Positions 14,901-33,338 of a stretch of 33,988 nt of DNA are shown here, in pieces. A model generated the notes under the pieces. The model was not told the origin of the DNA. It ran no database searches and saw only the letters and a program-made list of their open reading frames with translations. The stretch lies in contig JAJRSO010000036.1 in NCBI GenBank assembly GCA_024278755.1, positions 1 through 33,988 of the forward strand, given 5' to 3'. The translations under genes and the position numbers were made by a program. This stretch comes from Calditrichota bacterium (lineage in GTDB: Bacteria > Calditrichota > Calditrichia > Calditrichales > Calditrichaceae). Each line of letters opens with the position of its first letter. Within the stretch, counting starts at the first letter, position 1.

Positions 14901-15123
14901 AACAGTGTTAACAATATCACATTTCGTATTGGAAATATGCTTAGATTACAAAATTCAGACATCCTTTTCCCATATACTGCCAAACCAAAATTAATTGAAA
15001 AGAACAGCATATATGGGTATCTTTTGTGTTTCACTTCTGTGAGTGACGTGGCGGAGCTGTGCCCGGCAGAATAGTTACTTTGGGAATCGGCAAATAATGC
15101 AGTTTAAAAATACAGGAAGACAA

Positions 15124-17367
15124 ATGAGACCGTATATTTTTGTTTTATTAACCGCTCTATTTTTTATTACCGCTGTAAAAGCCCAGACGATTGATGACTT
15201 ACGTAAGCTGGAAGCATTAAAAAAACAGTTGGAAGATACGGACAATTTACCCAAAATAAAAAAAACCGTATCTCCGGAAGATACGGGAAAATCGTTAACC
15301 GTCTTTAAAGACACCCTTTCTAAACCGATCTCCCCTGCGCCGAAAAAAACCGCGGTTAAAACACCACTGCCAATGCTTCTACCGTATTTTGGATATAGTA
15401 TTTTCCGTAATGCCAAGGTGGATTTTTCACCGGAAGTATTTGGGCCTGTGGATAACAAGTACCCGCTGGGACCCGGCGATGAAATAGTTATCAGCATTTG
15501 GGGCGAAGTGGAATTGCGTCATTCCCTGACCATCGATCGGGAAGGTCAGGTGTATATTGAGAATGTAGGAATTGTTACGTTAAGCGGTCTAAATATCAGG
15601 CAGGCTAAGAAAAAATTACGTAACGTTTTGAGTAAGTCCTATTCTTCCTTATCTGACGGTAAAGCCTTTTTAGATCTGTCCATCGGTAAATTGCGTTCCA
15701 TCCGGGTTTTTGTTGTGGGCAATGTAAAAAGTCCGGGCGTCTTTACGGTACCGGCTTTAACCTCTCCGTTTAATATGCTTTTTTATGCCGGCGGCGTTCT
15801 GCAAAACGGTTCGTTACGAAATATTTCATTGATCCGAAAAAACAAAAAAATACAGGCGCTCGATTTTTATGCCTTTTTAAATAAGGGAGAAAAATACGGC
15901 AACGTTCGGCTTCAAAACTATGATGTGATTGTAATACCCGCCGTAAAAAAACGGGTGCATCTGAGCGGCGCTGTTGTGGAACCGGCTGTCTATGAACTCG
16001 CTAAAAAGGAAAGCCTTAGCGACCTTATTCATCTTGCCGGTGGATTTAAGGCCAATGCCTATATCGAAAACATCCAGATCGAGCGATATCTCGACAATAA
16101 GGAACGGCAGTTGATTTCTGTAAATTATAAAAAAACGCATGGTAAATTTAAACTGATGGACGGCGATAGAATCGCCGTGAGCGCCATTGACCGAAAAATT
16201 GAAAATTTTATTAAAATATCCGGCCCTGTTTTTGGCCCAAAACGGTTCGAGTTTTATCCGGGAATGACTATCAAGGACCTGTTTAGTCAGGTAGACAGTA
16301 TTGCCGGCGACGCATACCTTGACCGGGTGCACATTACCCGTATGCTTCCGGATCGCAAGAAGCAGTTGTTTTCGGTAAATCTGAATGAATTTCTGGAAAA
16401 CAATGATCAGGATTTTCTGCTGGCGCCGGAAGATTATATTGAAATTCAATCCCGTCAAATGCTTTTCCCGGCCGATTCCGTGCATATATATGGAGCCATC
16501 ACAACGCCCGGTACATACGAACTAAAAAAAGACATGACATTAAAAGACCTGATTTTTTCAGCCGGCGGCTTCCTAAAAAACGCCTTAATCGGTCAGGCGG
16601 AAATATCCCGTTTAAACCCTTTTAACAATGACCCGAATAAGCTTTCAACCATTGTATATGTGGCTATCGATTCCAACTATACAAAACAGCTGGAGCCGAA
16701 TACAGGCGATCTGTTTTTCCTTAAAGCAAACGATGATATTTTTATTCGTACTAACAGCGACTGGGAGATGCAGCGGCATATTAGTGTTAGCGGAGAGGTT
16801 AAACTGCCCGGCACTTATTCTCTGAAGAGCAAAACCGAACGCATTACCGATTTAATTGAACGAGCGGGTGGCTTAAAACCCACGGCCTATCTTGAAGGCG
16901 CCCAGTTATTTCGTCGCAACCGCGGTGTCGGACAAATCGGCATCGATTTTAAAGCGATTTTTGAAGACCCCTCGGATGCACAAAACATCTTTTTAGAAGC
17001 GGGCGATCGCATTGTTATTCCGGAAAAACTGGCGACCGTAAAAATTGTTGGAGGGGTGCACTTCCCCAGCAGTGTCTTGTTTGAAAAAGGTAAGGGGCTG
17101 AATTACTACATTAAGTCCGCCGGAGGGCTTACAGAACTGGCGGATGAAAGCAATATTACCGTTCGTCTTGCCAACGGGCGGCCGGCACATCTTAAACGCT
17201 TTTTATTCTGGAAATACTTATCCGATGATATTACGGCGGGCAGTACCATTTATGTGCCGGTTTTTACCGAGAATCAGGACATTGACTGGTCGGGCGCCAT
17301 CCGCGACGCAGCGGCTATATTAAGCAGTGTCGCTACGGTGATTTTGATTGTTGACCGGGTAAGATAA
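15124..17367 (+). CDS. Outer-membrane polysaccharide export protein with multiple SLBB domains (Wza-like)
   Basis: I chose the ATG at 15124: AGGA lies a few bases upstream and it begins a clean signal peptide (MRPYIFVLLTALFFITAVKAQ). The longer GTG-started frame from 15043 would bury that peptide. The 747-residue product has the polysaccharide-export (PES) domain at about 15455-15690 (YPLGPGDEIVISIWG, then TIDREGQVYIENVG), followed by about six SLBB-type repeats to 17215. Each repeat has a V-x-G-x-V-x-x-P-G-x-Y/F strand and an AGG turn, with the third and sixth more divergent. A short C-terminal hydrophobic helix ends in LIVDRVR. It forms the outer-membrane channel for capsule or exopolysaccharide and works with the Wzz-like protein at 19986. 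A 48-nt relic of a homologue's 3' end lies at 19837-19884. Confidence 0.92.
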   Translation: MRPYIFVLLTALFFITAVKAQTIDDLRKLEALKKQLEDTDNLPKIKKTVSPEDTGKSLTVFKDTLSKPISPAPKKTAVKTPLPMLLPYFGYSIFRNAKVDFSPEVFGPVDNKYPLGPGDEIVISIWGEVELRHSLTIDREGQVYIENVGIVTLSGLNIRQAKKKLRNVLSKSYSSLSDGKAFLDLSIGKLRSIRVFVVGNVKSPGVFTVPALTSPFNMLFYAGGVLQNGSLRNISLIRKNKKIQALDFYAFLNKGEKYGNVRLQNYDVIVIPAVKKRVHLSGAVVEPAVYELAKKESLSDLIHLAGGFKANAYIENIQIERYLDNKERQLISVNYKKTHGKFKLMDGDRIAVSAIDRKIENFIKISGPVFGPKRFEFYPGMTIKDLFSQVDSIAGDAYLDRVHITRMLPDRKKQLFSVNLNEFLENNDQDFLLAPEDYIEIQSRQMLFPADSVHIYGAITTPGTYELKKDMTLKDLIFSAGGFLKNALIGQAEISRLNPFNNDPNKLSTIVYVAIDSNYTKQLEPNTGDLFFLKANDDIFIRTNSDWEMQRHISVSGEVKLPGTYSLKSKTERITDLIERAGGLKPTAYLEGAQLFRRNRGVGQIGIDFKAIFEDPSDAQNIFLEAGDRIVIPEKLATVKIVGGVHFPSSVLFEKGKGLNYYIKSAGGLTELADESNITVRLANGRPAHLKRFLFWKYLSDDITAGSTIYVPVFTENQDIDWSGAIRDAAAILSSVATVILIVDRVR

Positions 17368-17385: not shown

Positions 17386-17649
17386 GTGTTTACTCTGGAT
17401 AAAAAATATTTTTGGGATATTAATTACACAGATATCGATTTACAAAAACACCGCAAATTTATAATTCCCCGTATTTTAGAACGCGGGAACTGGCCCGATT
17501 TTAAAGCGCTCATCGAATACTACGGATACGATACCGTAAAAGAAGATTTGCTCCATACACGGTATTTAGACAAAAAGTCGCTGCGTTTTTGCAGTTTTTA
17601 CTTTAGAATTCCACAGGAAAAGTTCAGATGCTTCAAACCAACGCTTTAA
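17386..17649 (+). CDS. DUF6922-like small protein, probable antitoxin partner of AbiEii-type toxin
   Basis: The product is 87 residues from a GTG start, with AGGAAA ten bases upstream. The sequence FWDINYTDIDLQKHRKFIIP...ILERGNW, then YYGYDTVKEDLL and a conserved LDKKSLRF segment, matches the small DUF6922 proteins commonly encoded just upstream of AbiEii-like nucleotidyltransferases. Its 3' end overlaps the toxin gene by 22 bases, a coupled arrangement typical of two-gene toxin-antitoxin systems. It begins only 18 bases after the exporter stop, so it may be read from the capsule promoter. The antitoxin role is inferred from context. Confidence 0.75.
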   Translation: MFTLDKKYFWDINYTDIDLQKHRKFIIPRILERGNWPDFKALIEYYGYDTVKEDLLHTRYLDKKSLRFCSFYFRIPQEKFRCFKPTL

Positions 17650-18257
17650 CGCCAGACACATGGGGGCTTTTAAATCGATTGATGGCACATCCCAGTCTTA
17701 ATGATTTTGCTTTGGCGGGTGGAACCAGCCTCGCCTTGCGCCTTGGGCATCGTATTTCAGTGGATTTAGATTTATTTTCAACTAAGAATTTTTCCGCTGA
17801 AACTCTGCTGCAAGAACTGCGTGAGGATTTTAAAATTGATATCCAAAATATCTCTAAGAATACATTAAATTTACAAATTGATGGTATTAAGGCGGATATT
17901 CTGGCTTATAAATATCCGCTGTTGGAAGATATTGAAACAATTGATAATATTCGTCTTTTTTCCGTTCCGGATATTGCCGCTATGAAGTTATCGGCGGTAA
18001 GCGCACGCGGGAGTAAAAAGGATTTTTATGATCTTCATTTTTTGTTAAAACAATATCCATTGCCGGCGCTGCTTGATTTTTATAAAAAAAAATATCAAAC
18101 GGATCAATATTATCATATTCTAAAAAGTTTAATCTTTTTTGATGATGCGGAAGACGAGCCGGAACCAAGACGATTGCAGCAAACAGTAAGCTGGGAAGCC
18201 ATAAAGTCAAGGTTTGAAAAAACTGTTAGGGCGTTAATTGAGCAAGAGGACAAATGA
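17628..18257 (+). CDS. AbiEii/AbiGii-type nucleotidyltransferase toxin
   Basis: This 209-residue protein has the AbiEii nucleotidyltransferase core: LAGGTSLALRLGHR then SVDLDLF, with G31-G32-T-S34 and the metal-binding D46 and D48. The second family motif is also present: K120 in AAMKLSAVSARGSKKDFYDL, with D132 and D135. Family members transfer nucleotides to tRNA or other RNA and act as toxins in type IV toxin-antitoxin or phage-abortive systems. It is somewhat shorter than classical AbiEii. The gene is intact and overlaps the DUF6922-like gene by 22 bases. The pair forms the first part of a block of accessory genes inserted in the polysaccharide locus. Confidence 0.88.
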   Translation: MLQTNALTPDTWGLLNRLMAHPSLNDFALAGGTSLALRLGHRISVDLDLFSTKNFSAETLLQELREDFKIDIQNISKNTLNLQIDGIKADILAYKYPLLEDIETIDNIRLFSVPDIAAMKLSAVSARGSKKDFYDLHFLLKQYPLPALLDFYKKKYQTDQYYHILKSLIFFDDAEDEPEPRRLQQTVSWEAIKSRFEKTVRALIEQEDK

Positions 18258-18348
18258 GTGTAAATATTTATCCGTGACATGGCCGCTATTTTAAGGAGCG
18301 TGGTACAATCCTTTAATTAAGCTAATACATTTAAAAAACGGGATTAAT

Positions 18349-18937
18349 ATGGCAAAGCAAAATATTCCAATTTAAAATTACGCTGCAAGGGAGCAAACCA
18401 GTAATTTGGCGAAGAATACTTGTACCAGATTCTTTTACATTCTGGGATTTGCATATGGCTATTCAGGATGCCATGGGCTGGGATAACGCGCATCTTCATG
18501 ACTTTACAGTGGCTAGTCTTGAAGGGGTTGACGAAGATCATATTGGTATCCCGGATGACAGCGGTTTTGATGAGTTCGATACAAAACCAGGCTGGAAAGT
18601 GAAAATTAAAAAATATTTTACCGAAGAAGGCGATTCGGCGTTTTATGAATATGATTTTGGCGATAGCTGGGGGCACAGTGTTGAACTGGAAAAAGTATTA
18701 CCCAAACTCATGGACATCAAATACCCTGTTTGTACCGCCGGTAAACGAGCCTGCCCGCCCGAAGACTGCGGCGGGGTTTGGGGATACAAAAATCTTTTGG
18801 ATATAATAAAAGCCCCCAGGCATGAAGAGTATGAGTCTATGATGGAATGGCTGGGCGGTGCATTTGATCCGGAAGCGTTCAATGCGGCAGAGGTATTTTT
18901 TACAGACCCCAAACAGCGTCTGAAATATATAATTTAG
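18349..18937 (+). pseudogene. Plasmid pRiA4b ORF-3-like gene with N-terminal frameshift
   Basis: The family's usual N-terminus (MAKQ...FQFKITL-G-S-K-P-V-I-W-R-R) can be read, but only in two frames. The ATG at 18349 starts MAKQ, then a one-base shift at the AAAA run 18359-18362 is needed to continue as IFQFKITLQGSKPVIWRR...FWDLHMAIQDAMGW. Without the shift the first frame stops after eight codons. The remaining open frame starts at an internal ATG (18449, 162 residues) and keeps the DFGDSWGH, CPPEDCGG and LGGAFDPEAFN motifs, so most of the domain survives. Members are often carried on mobile DNA; the function is unknown. It is either a recent pseudogene, a sequencing error, or a protein restarted at 18449 or the nearby TTG. 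Confidence 0.75.
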
Positions 18938-19039
18938 TGACAGTGACGGGAATGAAATAAAGTTTGTTTTTCAAAAAAATCTTTTTTGCAAACGGGACAG
19001 AATTTCTTAATTTTTTTTCTAAATTAAAAGGGCCTAAAA

Positions 19040-19264
19040 ATGCAGGCATTAAAATTTATTAAAACTATCAAAAAAAACAAGATTGTACTGAATATACCTG
19101 ATGAATTTGAGACGGATGATGCTGAAATTATCGTATTACCGTATAGGAAAAAAGAAAAAGATTTGCAGGCTTTGTTAAATGTTTCTATATGGAGCGCTGA
19201 AGATGTCAAGGGAATAGAAGAAGCAATTGAAGGGTTTAAAAATTGGAAAATCGAAGCATTCTGA
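19040..19264 (+). CDS. Small VapB-type antitoxin-like protein
   Basis: The product has 74 residues: an N-terminal beta strand/helix part (ALKFIKTIKKNKIVLNIPDEF) that looks like a short antitoxin DNA-binding fold, and an acidic, helical C-terminus (WSAEDVKGIEEAIEGFKNW) of the type that wraps a PIN-domain toxin. The identity rests mainly on its position: its end overlaps the start of a PIN-domain toxin gene by 22 bases. No standard MazE or RHH signature is obvious. The gene is clearly more AT-rich than the exporter gene upstream. Confidence 0.75.
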   Translation: MQALKFIKTIKKNKIVLNIPDEFETDDAEIIVLPYRKKEKDLQALLNVSIWSAEDVKGIEEAIEGFKNWKIEAF

Positions 19265-19638
19265 TAGATACTTCTATCGTAATTGATCATCTAAGAAAAT
19301 CTAGAAAAGATAATACATTACTCACAACATATTTTGAAAAATATACTCTTTTTACTTCTACAATCACTGTTTTTGAATTGTATGTGGGCGCCACTGATAA
19401 AAGAAAATATAGCGATATAGAAAAAATATTAAGTCAGGTTGCTATAATAGATTTCAATAGACCAATTGCTCAAAATGCAAGTATAATTTTTAATAAGCTA
19501 AAATTCAAGAATCAACTTATTGATTACAGAGATTTGTTTATTGCCGCTACAGCTATTGCAAACAACATCCCTTTAGCAACTCTTAATATCAAACATTTTG
19601 AGAGAGTAGAAGAGTTGAAATTAGCTCCCATGAAATAG
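19243..19638 (+). CDS. PIN-domain toxin, VapC-like ribonuclease
   Basis: This 131-residue PIN domain starts at a TTG inside the antitoxin gene. Acidic active-site residues are visible: D9 in ILIDTSIVID, E45 in VFELYVGA and D97 in DLFIAATAIA. In the last motif (LATLNIKHFERV) the usual acidic residue is replaced by N115/H118, a variant also common in this family. VapC toxins cleave tRNA or rRNA when the antitoxin is lost. It forms a toxin-antitoxin pair with the upstream small gene. Downstream lies the scar region 19639-19985, 347 bases that hold only two gene fragments and AT-rich leader sequence for the Wzz gene. Confidence 0.9.
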   Translation: MENRSILIDTSIVIDHLRKSRKDNTLLTTYFEKYTLFTSTITVFELYVGATDKRKYSDIEKILSQVAIIDFNRPIAQNASIIFNKLKFKNQLIDYRDLFIAATAIANNIPLATLNIKHFERVEELKLAPMK

Positions 19639-19716
19639 GGACTTTCCAAAGCGCAAAAAGGCATATCGTACTATTAATAAAATTGGTAAATCATTACCGT
19701 AACGGGCGTTATAGTA

Positions 19717-19815
19717 ATGATGGAATGGCTGGGCGGTGCGTTTGATCCGGAAGCGTTCAATGCGGCAGAGGTATTTTTTACAGACCCCAAACAGCGCCTG
19801 AAATATGTTTTATAG
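19717..19815 (+). pseudogene. 3' fragment of a second pRiA4b ORF-3-like gene
   Basis: These 99 bases match 18839-18937 at 93 positions and encode the same C-terminal residues (MMEWLGGAFDPEAF...DPKQRLKY) with a different last pair (VL instead of II) and a stop. Homology starts abruptly at the ATGATG and nothing upstream resembles the rest of the gene. The different ending shows that it came from a related gene, not from a simple copy of the neighbour. It has no plausible product of its own. Confidence 0.88.
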
Positions 19816-19836
19816 CGCAAGCGCCACAGAGTGGTT

Positions 19837-19884
19837 TTAAGTAGCGTGGCGTCTGTAACTTTGAACGTAGATCGGGTGAGATAG
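19837..19884 (+). pseudogene. 3' remnant of a Wza-like exporter gene
   Basis: This segment encodes LSSVASVTLNVDRVR and stop, against LSSVATVILIVDRVR and stop at the end of the exporter gene (17320-17367): 12 of 15 residues are identical. The DNA matches at 34 of 48 positions, with most differences in third codon positions, as expected for a diverged coding homologue. No longer frame extends upstream. It sits directly before the Wzz-like gene, where the end of an exporter gene would be expected in an unbroken operon. Confidence 0.72.
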
Positions 19885-19985: not shown

Positions 19986-20972
19986 ATGTCAAAACAAATA
20001 ACAAATATGGAAGAACTTTTTCAGCAGCTTTGGGCTAAAAGAATAAAGTTTTTACTAATTTCAGGTACTTTTTTCTTTTTAACTATTATTTATCTTGTCT
20101 TTGCTACAAATTGGTATACTGCCACTATTAAAATTATTCCTTCAGAGCCAAATGACAATATGATGTTAAGACAATATGCAAGCATTGCCGCCCTTGCCGG
20201 TGTAAATATTCCAATGGGAGCTGCTAGTCAACACTATTTTTATCCCGAAATTATAAAATCAAACTTTATCTTAGACAGAATACTTGAGCATAAATTCAAA
20301 ACAGAAAACCCCAATATTCAAATGACCGTTTTCGATATATTAGGTATTGAAATTGATTCAAGCGAAGCTGACTGGAGGTTTAAACTCTATGAAAAAACAA
20401 AAAAAAGATTTCGTAATAGTTTCATTAAAACCGAGATCGATGAATTAACAGAGATGATTATTGTAAGCATAGAATTACCGAATGATAGGATTTTTGTTAA
20501 AGAAGTGGCAAATTTTATTATAACTGAATTAGATAAATATAACCGTATCTATAAAAGGACTAAGGCAAAAGACCAACGATTGGTTATTGAAAAAGGAATT
20601 AAAGAAAACTTAAAAAACTTAAAAAATGCTGAAGCAAAACTTGTACAATTTGAAATAAAGAATAAAGATGTCACATCTCCTGAAAAAAAGGTTTATTTAA
20701 ATGGTTTACAAATGGATGTGGATATTTTTTATACTATAGTAAAAGAACTGAAGAAACAATTAGAATTAATTAAAATTGAAGAAGTAAAACAGACCCCAAC
20801 ATTGGATATACTGGAAAAAGCAAGTAAACCTTATGAAGCAAGTAAACCTAAAAAAATTGTACTTTTATTTCTTGGACTAATTTTAAGCGTACTTATTGCA
20901 TTCTTTTTTGTATTATTCCCGGTGTCTACTATAAAAAGCTATTTTAACCTTTCTAAAATTATAAATAAGTAA
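19986..20972 (+). CDS. Wzz-like polysaccharide chain-length regulator (PCP family)
   Basis: The protein has 328 residues. A cytosolic N-terminus is followed by a first membrane helix at about residues 22-42 (KFLLISGTFFFLTIIYLVFA), a long periplasmic region rich in helices and coiled coil (EKGIKENLKNLKNAEAKLV), then a P-rich segment and a second membrane helix at about 288-310 (KIVLLFLGLILSVLIAFFF). This is the polysaccharide co-polymerase topology. No Walker motif or tyrosine cluster follows, so it lacks the kinase domain of Wzc. It should set polymer length with the Wzy polymerase and touch the outer-membrane exporter. It is the first gene of the tightly packed AT-rich part of the operon. 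Confidence 0.87.
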   Translation: MSKQITNMEELFQQLWAKRIKFLLISGTFFFLTIIYLVFATNWYTATIKIIPSEPNDNMMLRQYASIAALAGVNIPMGAASQHYFYPEIIKSNFILDRILEHKFKTENPNIQMTVFDILGIEIDSSEADWRFKLYEKTKKRFRNSFIKTEIDELTEMIIVSIELPNDRIFVKEVANFIITELDKYNRIYKRTKAKDQRLVIEKGIKENLKNLKNAEAKLVQFEIKNKDVTSPEKKVYLNGLQMDVDIFYTIVKELKKQLELIKIEEVKQTPTLDILEKASKPYEASKPKKIVLLFLGLILSVLIAFFFVLFPVSTIKSYFNLSKIINK

Positions 20973-32078: not shown

Positions 32079-33338
32079 ATGAATCGCAGCACCATTATTT
32101 CCGTCATACTAGATCAACGGGAATCCTTAAAAAAGACAAAATATATTTCCCGTCTGGCTGAATACCCGATTCCTAATGATAATGAGATTGTCGTTATTTC
32201 CGGGATTCGACGCTGCGGCAAGTCGGTATTATTGCAGGAAATAAGAACCGCCAACGAAGAGAAAGATTATTTTTTAAATTTTGACGATGAACGGCTGATT
32301 CAGTTTAAAGTAGATGATTTCCAGTTACTGATCGAAATTTTTATCGAGTTATTTGGAACTCAATCAACCTTCTATTTCGATGAGATTCAAAACATATTAG
32401 GCTGGGAACGCTTTGCCAGAAGATTATATGATCAGGGTAATAAGATTTATATTACCGGCTCAAATGCATCTATGTTAAGTAAGGAATTAGGTACGCATTT
32501 AACAGGCCGTTTTTATCAGATAGAACTGTATCCTTTTTCTTTTAAAGAATATCTTACTTTTAAAAAGATCGATTATAAAAAAACAGATTTTTATACAACC
32601 AGAGGCAAAGCAGAATTAAAAACGCATTTTAATAAATACTTTGAATCTGGCGGTTTCCCGGCATTCCTGCAAAATAAAAACCGTCAATATTTAAAATCTC
32701 TTTACGAAAGCATTCTTTACCGGGATGTAATGGTTCGTAACAATATCACAAAAGAGCGGGAAATTTTAGAACTTGTTTACTACCTCGCCAGTAACACATC
32801 AAAGCTAATTACGTATAACAGTTTAAAAAATATTATATACCTGCAAAATGCCACTACTGTAAAAAAATACTTGGATTATATTCAAAATACATATTTGATA
32901 TTTCTAACAAGCAAATATGACCCTTCATTAAAAAAACAGCTCCAGAATCCTAAAAAAGTTTATTTCATTGACAATGCTCTTTCCAATGAGCTTGGTTTCC
33001 GCACTTCGGATGACAGAGGAAGGTTATTAGAGAACCTCGTATTTATTGAACTAAAACGCCGCGGCTATGATATTTTTTACAATAAGAATAAACAGGAATG
33101 TGATTTTGTTATTAGAGAGAAAAATCATATAGCACAAGTGATTCAGGTAAGCTGGTCAATATATGACAAGGATACAAGAAATAGAGAAATTAATGGTTTA
33201 AAAGAAGCGATGGATTTATACAATTTAGATTCAGGCTGTATACTGACAGAAAACGATGAAGAAATAATAAATATCAGAAATAAGAACATTTTCATCAAAC
33301 CGGTATGGAAATGGTTATTAGATAAAACAACGAAATAA
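32079..33338 (+). CDS. AAA-family ATPase with C-terminal DUF4143 domain
   Basis: The product is 419 residues. The N-terminal AAA_14-type ATPase has Walker A in SGIRRCGKS (G42-S49), Walker B in FYFDEIQN (D101, E102) and a sensor-1-like ITGSNASML, then the family's GRFYQIELYPFSFKEYL segment. The C-terminal DUF4143 domain shows LYRDVMVRN, a winged-helix-like part and LLENLVFIELKRRGYDIFY...ECDFVI. In relatives that last region resembles a PD-(D/E)xK nuclease fold; here the final lysine of an ExK motif is not seen (it reads IQVSW). Function is unknown; such genes are frequently horizontally moved. It stands alone between direct repeats, with AGGT five bases before the ATG. Confidence 0.92.
   Translation: MNRSTIISVILDQRESLKKTKYISRLAEYPIPNDNEIVVISGIRRCGKSVLLQEIRTANEEKDYFLNFDDERLIQFKVDDFQLLIEIFIELFGTQSTFYFDEIQNILGWERFARRLYDQGNKIYITGSNASMLSKELGTHLTGRFYQIELYPFSFKEYLTFKKIDYKKTDFYTTRGKAELKTHFNKYFESGGFPAFLQNKNRQYLKSLYESILYRDVMVRNNITKEREILELVYYLASNTSKLITYNSLKNIIYLQNATTVKKYLDYIQNTYLIFLTSKYDPSLKKQLQNPKKVYFIDNALSNELGFRTSDDRGRLLENLVFIELKRRGYDIFYNKNKQECDFVIREKNHIAQVIQVSWSIYDKDTRNREINGLKEAMDLYNLDSGCILTENDEEIINIRNKNIFIKPVWKWLLDKTTK

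Follow-up and report, generated by a model that had tools for sequence, protein, structure and literature searches.

Apparent nested insertions of addiction- and defence-type genes with duplicated target gene tails at a wza–wzz junction in Calditrichota

Between a wza-like polysaccharide exporter gene and a wzz-like chain-length determinant gene, the stretch of DNA analysed here (the window, 33,988 nt) contains several small accessory genes interspersed with what appear to be the broken ends of their neighbours, and the question is how this arrangement arose. A sequence-only reading had taken two such gene ends to record a rearrangement in the operon. The scars are real, but rather than a single event they point to separate, nested insertions of different age, and there is a third scar as well. 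The order of the segment is wza [DUF6922-AbiEii] wza-tail [pRiA4b [VapB-PIN] pRiA4b-tail] wza-tail wzz (Table 1). The three cargo units are matched by three scars and their order is nested, with one tail per insertion. We conclude that the segment very probably arose through three or more successive insertions of small addiction- or defence-type genes, each of which duplicated the tail of its target.

Table 1. Genes and scars in the window from wza to wzz.
Feature	Coordinates	Strand	Remarks
wza-like polysaccharide exporter gene, intact	15043..17367	+	Poly_export and SLBB domains; 3′ end is the duplicated target
Cargo 1a, DUF6922 protein gene	17386..17649	+	Small gene ahead of AbiEii; PF21956, E 5e-20
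Cargo 1b, AbiEii-type nucleotidyltransferase toxin gene (type IV toxin–antitoxin)	17628..18257	+	Profile match
Scar A, degraded wza tail	18269..18303	+	I R D M A A I L R S V; 12 nt past the AbiEii stop
Cargo 2, pRiA4b ORF-3-like protein gene	18449..18937	+	Profile match begins at position 31
Cargo 3a, small ORF overlapping the PIN gene	19040..19264	+	No Pfam match
Cargo 3b, PIN-domain protein gene (VapC-like toxin)	19243..19638	+	PF01850, E 4e-16
Cargo 3 scar, copy of the final 99 nt of the pRiA4b gene	19717..19815	+	93/99
Scar B, wza tail with stop (TAG)	19837..19884	+	34/48 to own wza, 39/49 to congener wza
wzz-like chain-length determinant gene	19986..20972	+	Original downstream neighbour of wza; adjoins wza in G003

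Compared with type IV toxin–antitoxin (AbiE) systems, the window has AbiEii, whose neighbouring partner is the DUF6922 protein, with no match there to an AbiEi model; the DUF6922 protein presumably acts as the antitoxin. Judged by its position, the small ORF overlapping the PIN gene would be a VapB-like antitoxin. The pRiA4b-like gene has a likely true start at ATG 18349 (MAKQ..) that is out of frame with its body (IFQFKITLQGSKPVIWRR..), and this +1 frameshift (18349-18449) seems to reflect either a pseudogene or an assembly error. The window also contains an AAA_14/DUF4143 ATPase gene (32079-33338), which lies close to where the capsule cluster ends.

A repeat search recovers the copied pRiA4b tail as a 94% identical direct repeat of the end of the intact gene (18839-18937), as had been described. 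No further copies of this 99-nt repeat are present in the same genome, where the next matches are chance ones of 13-24 nt. The final codons of the intact pRiA4b gene differ from the scar as one block; the insert may have supplied them. The intact copy of a valS-like gene at another locus (described below) likewise differs from its scar in a block of final codons, as if the insert brings a new stop.

Scar B begins 21 bp past the pRiA4b scar, and its reported match to the end of the window wza gene (12/15 residues) is confirmed; in a hand count on the alignment, 11 of the 14 nucleotide differences fall at third codon positions. Its local alignment score against wza is 21, while 2000 dinucleotide shuffles gave no more than 15, and the congener wza tail matches it too, so this 48-nt stretch does not behave as random similarity. 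When the whole window was scanned for stop-anchored tails, only two pairs were returned, the pRiA4b repeat and scar B with wza. Scar A, which the earlier description did not include, follows directly after the AbiEii stop codon; it is a short (35 nt) and incomplete tail that matches the wza tail of the congener G001 (L039/L040) at 30/35 positions with a score of 25, which none of 20,000 dinucleotide shuffles reached (maximum 17), and it scores 16 against the window's own wza, a value reached by 2/5000 shuffles. When the congener tail is searched against the whole window it finds wza, scar B and scar A, and then only background. The sequence-only reading had asked whether the wza tail of a relative matches the relic better than the present gene does, and this is so for both scars, with congener versus own scores of 25 vs 16 for scar A and 29 vs 21 for scar B. 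At most of the positions where the window wza departs from that of the congener through synonymous changes of its own, the scars agree with the congener, and so the comparison is most simply explained if the intact window wza drifted synonymously after duplication. By divergence, the wza scars appear to be old and the pRiA4b scar young.

The window comes from a Calditrichaceae relative, and its wza–wzz junction was compared with those of related genomes. The two genes are contiguous in G003, where wzz is confirmed; in both G007 and G009 an ORF whose start looks wzz-like by eye comes after wza, within about 30 nt of it. These three uninterrupted relatives belong to different genera and are not the same species. 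In the congener G001, wza is followed by an AlbA_2-HATPase gene, a second wza tail (58/62 nt) and a short wzz-like start, and in G008, from another genus, by DUF6922-AbiEii, a wza tail (83/92 nt) and a wzz-like gene. The block is thus not shared everywhere in the same place, since G003 is contiguous and G001 carries other cargo, and because different cargo with tails occurs among relatives that also include the uninterrupted form, we regard the junction as a hotspot. The G006 interval contains accessory genes and a broken DUF6922 gene with no detectable wza tail; these genes (L041 6983-14292) are rfbC-like, Rpn-like in tandem copies, pRiA4b-like, a DUF4143 ATPase gene, and the remnant of a DUF6922 gene, which contains a stop codon. 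The sequence-only reading had offered repeated integration at the exporter 3′ end, leaving tails behind, and the relatives with different cargo and a wza tail at the same place, together with the uninterrupted ones, bear this out in large part. Its choice of the exporter end as target agrees with the wza tails but is too narrow, as pRiA4b and unrelated gene ends are hit too.

These other targets came from loci containing AbiEii, DUF6922, AlbA_2, PIN and DUF4143 genes, which were searched by self-comparison and by a stop-anchored scan for copied peptide tails. An RNase_T exonuclease gene is followed by AbiEi-AbiEii and a tail copy (46/52; L082), a luxR-type response regulator gene by PhdYefM-PIN and a tail of 97/100 (L137), and a valS-like gene, a name that we take from reading the protein, by an AlbA_2 gene and a tail copy (L118). 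The exonuclease has no homologue in five related genomes, so that its native allele is not identifiable. Behind a desulfoferrodoxin gene, a PIN gene is followed by a tail of 171/182 (L158, 1-3336); here the repeat runs past the stop codon, with an identical 3′ part and a coding 5′ part of about 90% identity, a mosaic that suggests later allele exchange. The intact end of an hsdS gene precedes an IS200-like (RAYT-type) gene and a 41-nt copy (37/41) just ahead of an AlbA_2 gene (L112, 1-1410). In an unrelated genome (L054) the copied part is a gene head, and DUF6922-AbiEii separates this copy from the intact DegT aminotransferase gene (127/135).

Only a few of the cargo loci that we examined have a detectable tail; the tail pattern is specific without being universal, and tails decay. 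Among the DUF4143 loci sampled there is no tail duplication; DUF4143 genes are very numerous in the family, with up to 20 matches per genome. Among 29 more DUF6922 loci around a second genome, G101, there is one clean flanking repeat of 63 nt at 100% identity (L246) and one of 476 nt (L255). The latter, in a relative of G101 (860-2494), is a 98% identical direct repeat around an antisense DUF6922-containing gene.

In a cross-locus null for the stop-anchored scan, in which tails were compared with other loci and same-locus draws were set aside, the only comparable matches were antisense pRiA4b homologues and one low-complexity pair with a score of 50. Twenty 20-kb stretches (400 kb) from two relatives, some of them picked to contain PIN or DUF4143 genes, yielded only paralogues and low-complexity repeats and no clean case. 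Several candidates were set aside: L079, L094, L104, L108, L120 and L128 have dispersed or low-complexity flanking repeats and were classed as intergenic repeats, L065 has an AT-rich repeat, and L041, L110, L195, L206 and L260 have tandem gene copies or domain repeats. An AbiE module flanked by a non-coding, intergenic repeat (L084; 139 nt, 72%), of which that genome has only two long copies, was left uncounted and may be an older case of the same pattern. At L090 the repeats around AbiEi/ii look by eye like the start of an IS110 transposase.

The repeats of target sequence flanking the inserts vary in length from about 35 to 182 nt, and the end points of the same cargo vary between genomes. 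Terminal inverted repeats are absent from 8/9 inserts tested, and we saw no terminal repeats common to the inserts. Close to its ends the VapB-PIN insert (18937-19716) contains an inverted repeat that is weak and imperfect (GTGACGGGAATG / CATTACCGTAAC; shuffling p 0.007, in 1/9 tests). No integrase or transposase is linked to the cargo genes, except that the L112 cargo is itself IS200-like (RAYT-type). The inserts thus lack the short target duplication of fixed length and the terminal inverted repeats of classical transposons, and equally the integrase and fixed attachment site of tRNA-type genomic islands, with many different genes serving as targets.

We propose that each insertion duplicates tens to about 100 bp of its target, such that a gene hit near its 3′ end would stay whole upstream of the insert, with a copy of its tail remaining downstream. 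In the window, pRiA4b would have entered behind wza, giving rise to scar B, and DUF6922-AbiEii would have entered behind wza, giving rise to scar A, either earlier or later than pRiA4b; VapB-PIN would have come last, behind pRiA4b, leaving the youngest scar. The incoming fragment may be joined at the gene end, with synthesis re-entering the template some tens of bases upstream, either by a template switch or by one-sided illegitimate recombination during DNA uptake. Because there is no transposase, integrase or common terminal repeat and the duplication length varies, the duplication step is most likely a repair-type event. Selection for intact neighbours would then filter the insertions, and the survivors would carry a tail copy because in tightly packed operons only tail-duplicating insertions save both the upstream gene end and the downstream gene start. 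The valS-like case illustrates this: in G015, G017, G018 and G020 the start codon of the next gene lies inside the valS-like tail, the G016 valS-like scar retains a downstream-gene start of that kind, and insertion there without duplication would break one of the two genes. Summed over the cases and the window, about 31/48 of the differences between intact genes and scars are at third codon positions, more than simple neutral decay of scars would give, and most of the divergence in the G008 and L158 repeats falls in their 5′ part. Both features hint that, in some cases, the intact gene underwent allele exchange or that import took place.

These same features would be accounted for, as third-position bias and mosaic divergence in G008 and L158, if the cargo and a tail were excised as a circle between the two tails and re-entered the same gene elsewhere by a single homologous crossover, which yields exactly a tail-cargo-tail arrangement. 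Such a route is unlikely, however, as it still requires a first insertion with duplication, repeats of 50-100 bp offer homologous recombination little length, and no circle was observed. The sequence-only reading had also suggested that the accessory block and exporter came in together, with a donor wza and its accessory genes recombining into the recipient wza and the end of the old gene persisting as scar B. The dominance of third-position differences (11/14 in scar B and 7/9 in G008) is what is seen between two functional alleles, and recombination that is homologous on one side and illegitimate on the other is a known process (PMC3240628). Replacement is nonetheless unnecessary and, in our judgement, quite improbable: identity between the window and congener wza genes is even (0.65-0.86 per 150 bases), with no 3′ step or breakpoint, ordinary drift explains why the scars have the congener state at the synonymous changes of the window wza, and the pRiA4b scar and scar A need further events.

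Were the wza 3′ end an attachment site for site-specific integration, as for islands at tRNA genes, the tails would be att repeats, and three genomes of two genera do have cargo and wza tails at the same place. We consider this very unlikely, as the cargo has no integrase, cargo and end positions differ, and the repeats at pRiA4b, valS-like, exonuclease, luxR-type, desulfoferrodoxin and hsdS genes and at the degT head contradict one fixed site. Chance similarity or tandem paralogy might be invoked for short scars such as the 35-nt scar A, which alone could coincide, but is hardly credible given the shuffle and cross-locus nulls and a 400-kb control without clean cases. Nested insertion with tail duplication is therefore the reading that we carry forward.

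Several known processes resemble these insertions in part. Minimal mobile elements of Neisseria are alternative gene sets without mobility genes that lie between the same conserved neighbours, and the wza–wzz junction similarly carries different cargo in different genomes; they are explained by exchange through flanking homology, with no tail duplication, unlike the wza–wzz inserts. For homology-facilitated illegitimate recombination we know of no regular 50-180-bp duplications. This process, in transformation or conjugation, is likewise free of transposase and joins foreign DNA beside a homologous anchor, but it requires that anchor (PMC3240628).

The closest parallel is insertion with long target duplication, reported for restriction-modification genes (Nobusato et al. 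2000, Gene 259:99; Furuta et al. 2010, NAR 38:2428) and first seen in Helicobacter pylori, as summarised in PMC3874152, PMC3031569 and PMC1643837. Some restriction-modification genes insert with long, variable target duplications on the order of 100 bp (PMC3874152), and the same long target duplication is described in PMC3031569 and PMC1643837. The published insertions and those described here both involve a small selfish unit without a linked transposase, a long and variable direct duplication of the target, and recognition by comparison with uninterrupted relatives. Restriction-modification cargo is replaced here by AbiEii, VapB-PIN, AlbA_2, pRiA4b and RAYT-type genes, and the inserts differ from the published ones, as these sources present them, in lying mostly at gene 3′ ends inside operons, in being nested, and in occurring in Calditrichota and others. 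The long repeat, uninterrupted relatives and lack of transposase or integrase are thus present and the restriction-modification cargo is not; we take the insertion pattern, rather than the cargo, as defining. In a partial coverage of the literature we found no report of long target duplication with toxin-antitoxin or AbiE cargo, and the additions to the known pattern are mainly the cargo (toxin-antitoxin, AbiE and AlbA_2), the nesting and the gene-end setting.

More tentatively, small addiction and defence genes in general, beyond restriction-modification systems, might enter genomes by a common transposase-free route in which about 50-180 bp of the target are duplicated. Such insertions would be retained best at the ends of genes in compact operons, since the duplication leaves both neighbours functional, and their tails would record the order of arrival. 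The findings bear on how toxin-antitoxin and defence genes that stand alone can move when no transposon carries them. Any genome can be searched for tail duplications, which show that such genes inserted one by one and, through their nesting, in which order. The pattern known from restriction-modification genes is extended to other addiction-type cargo, and a simple reason is suggested for the survival of such insertions inside operons.
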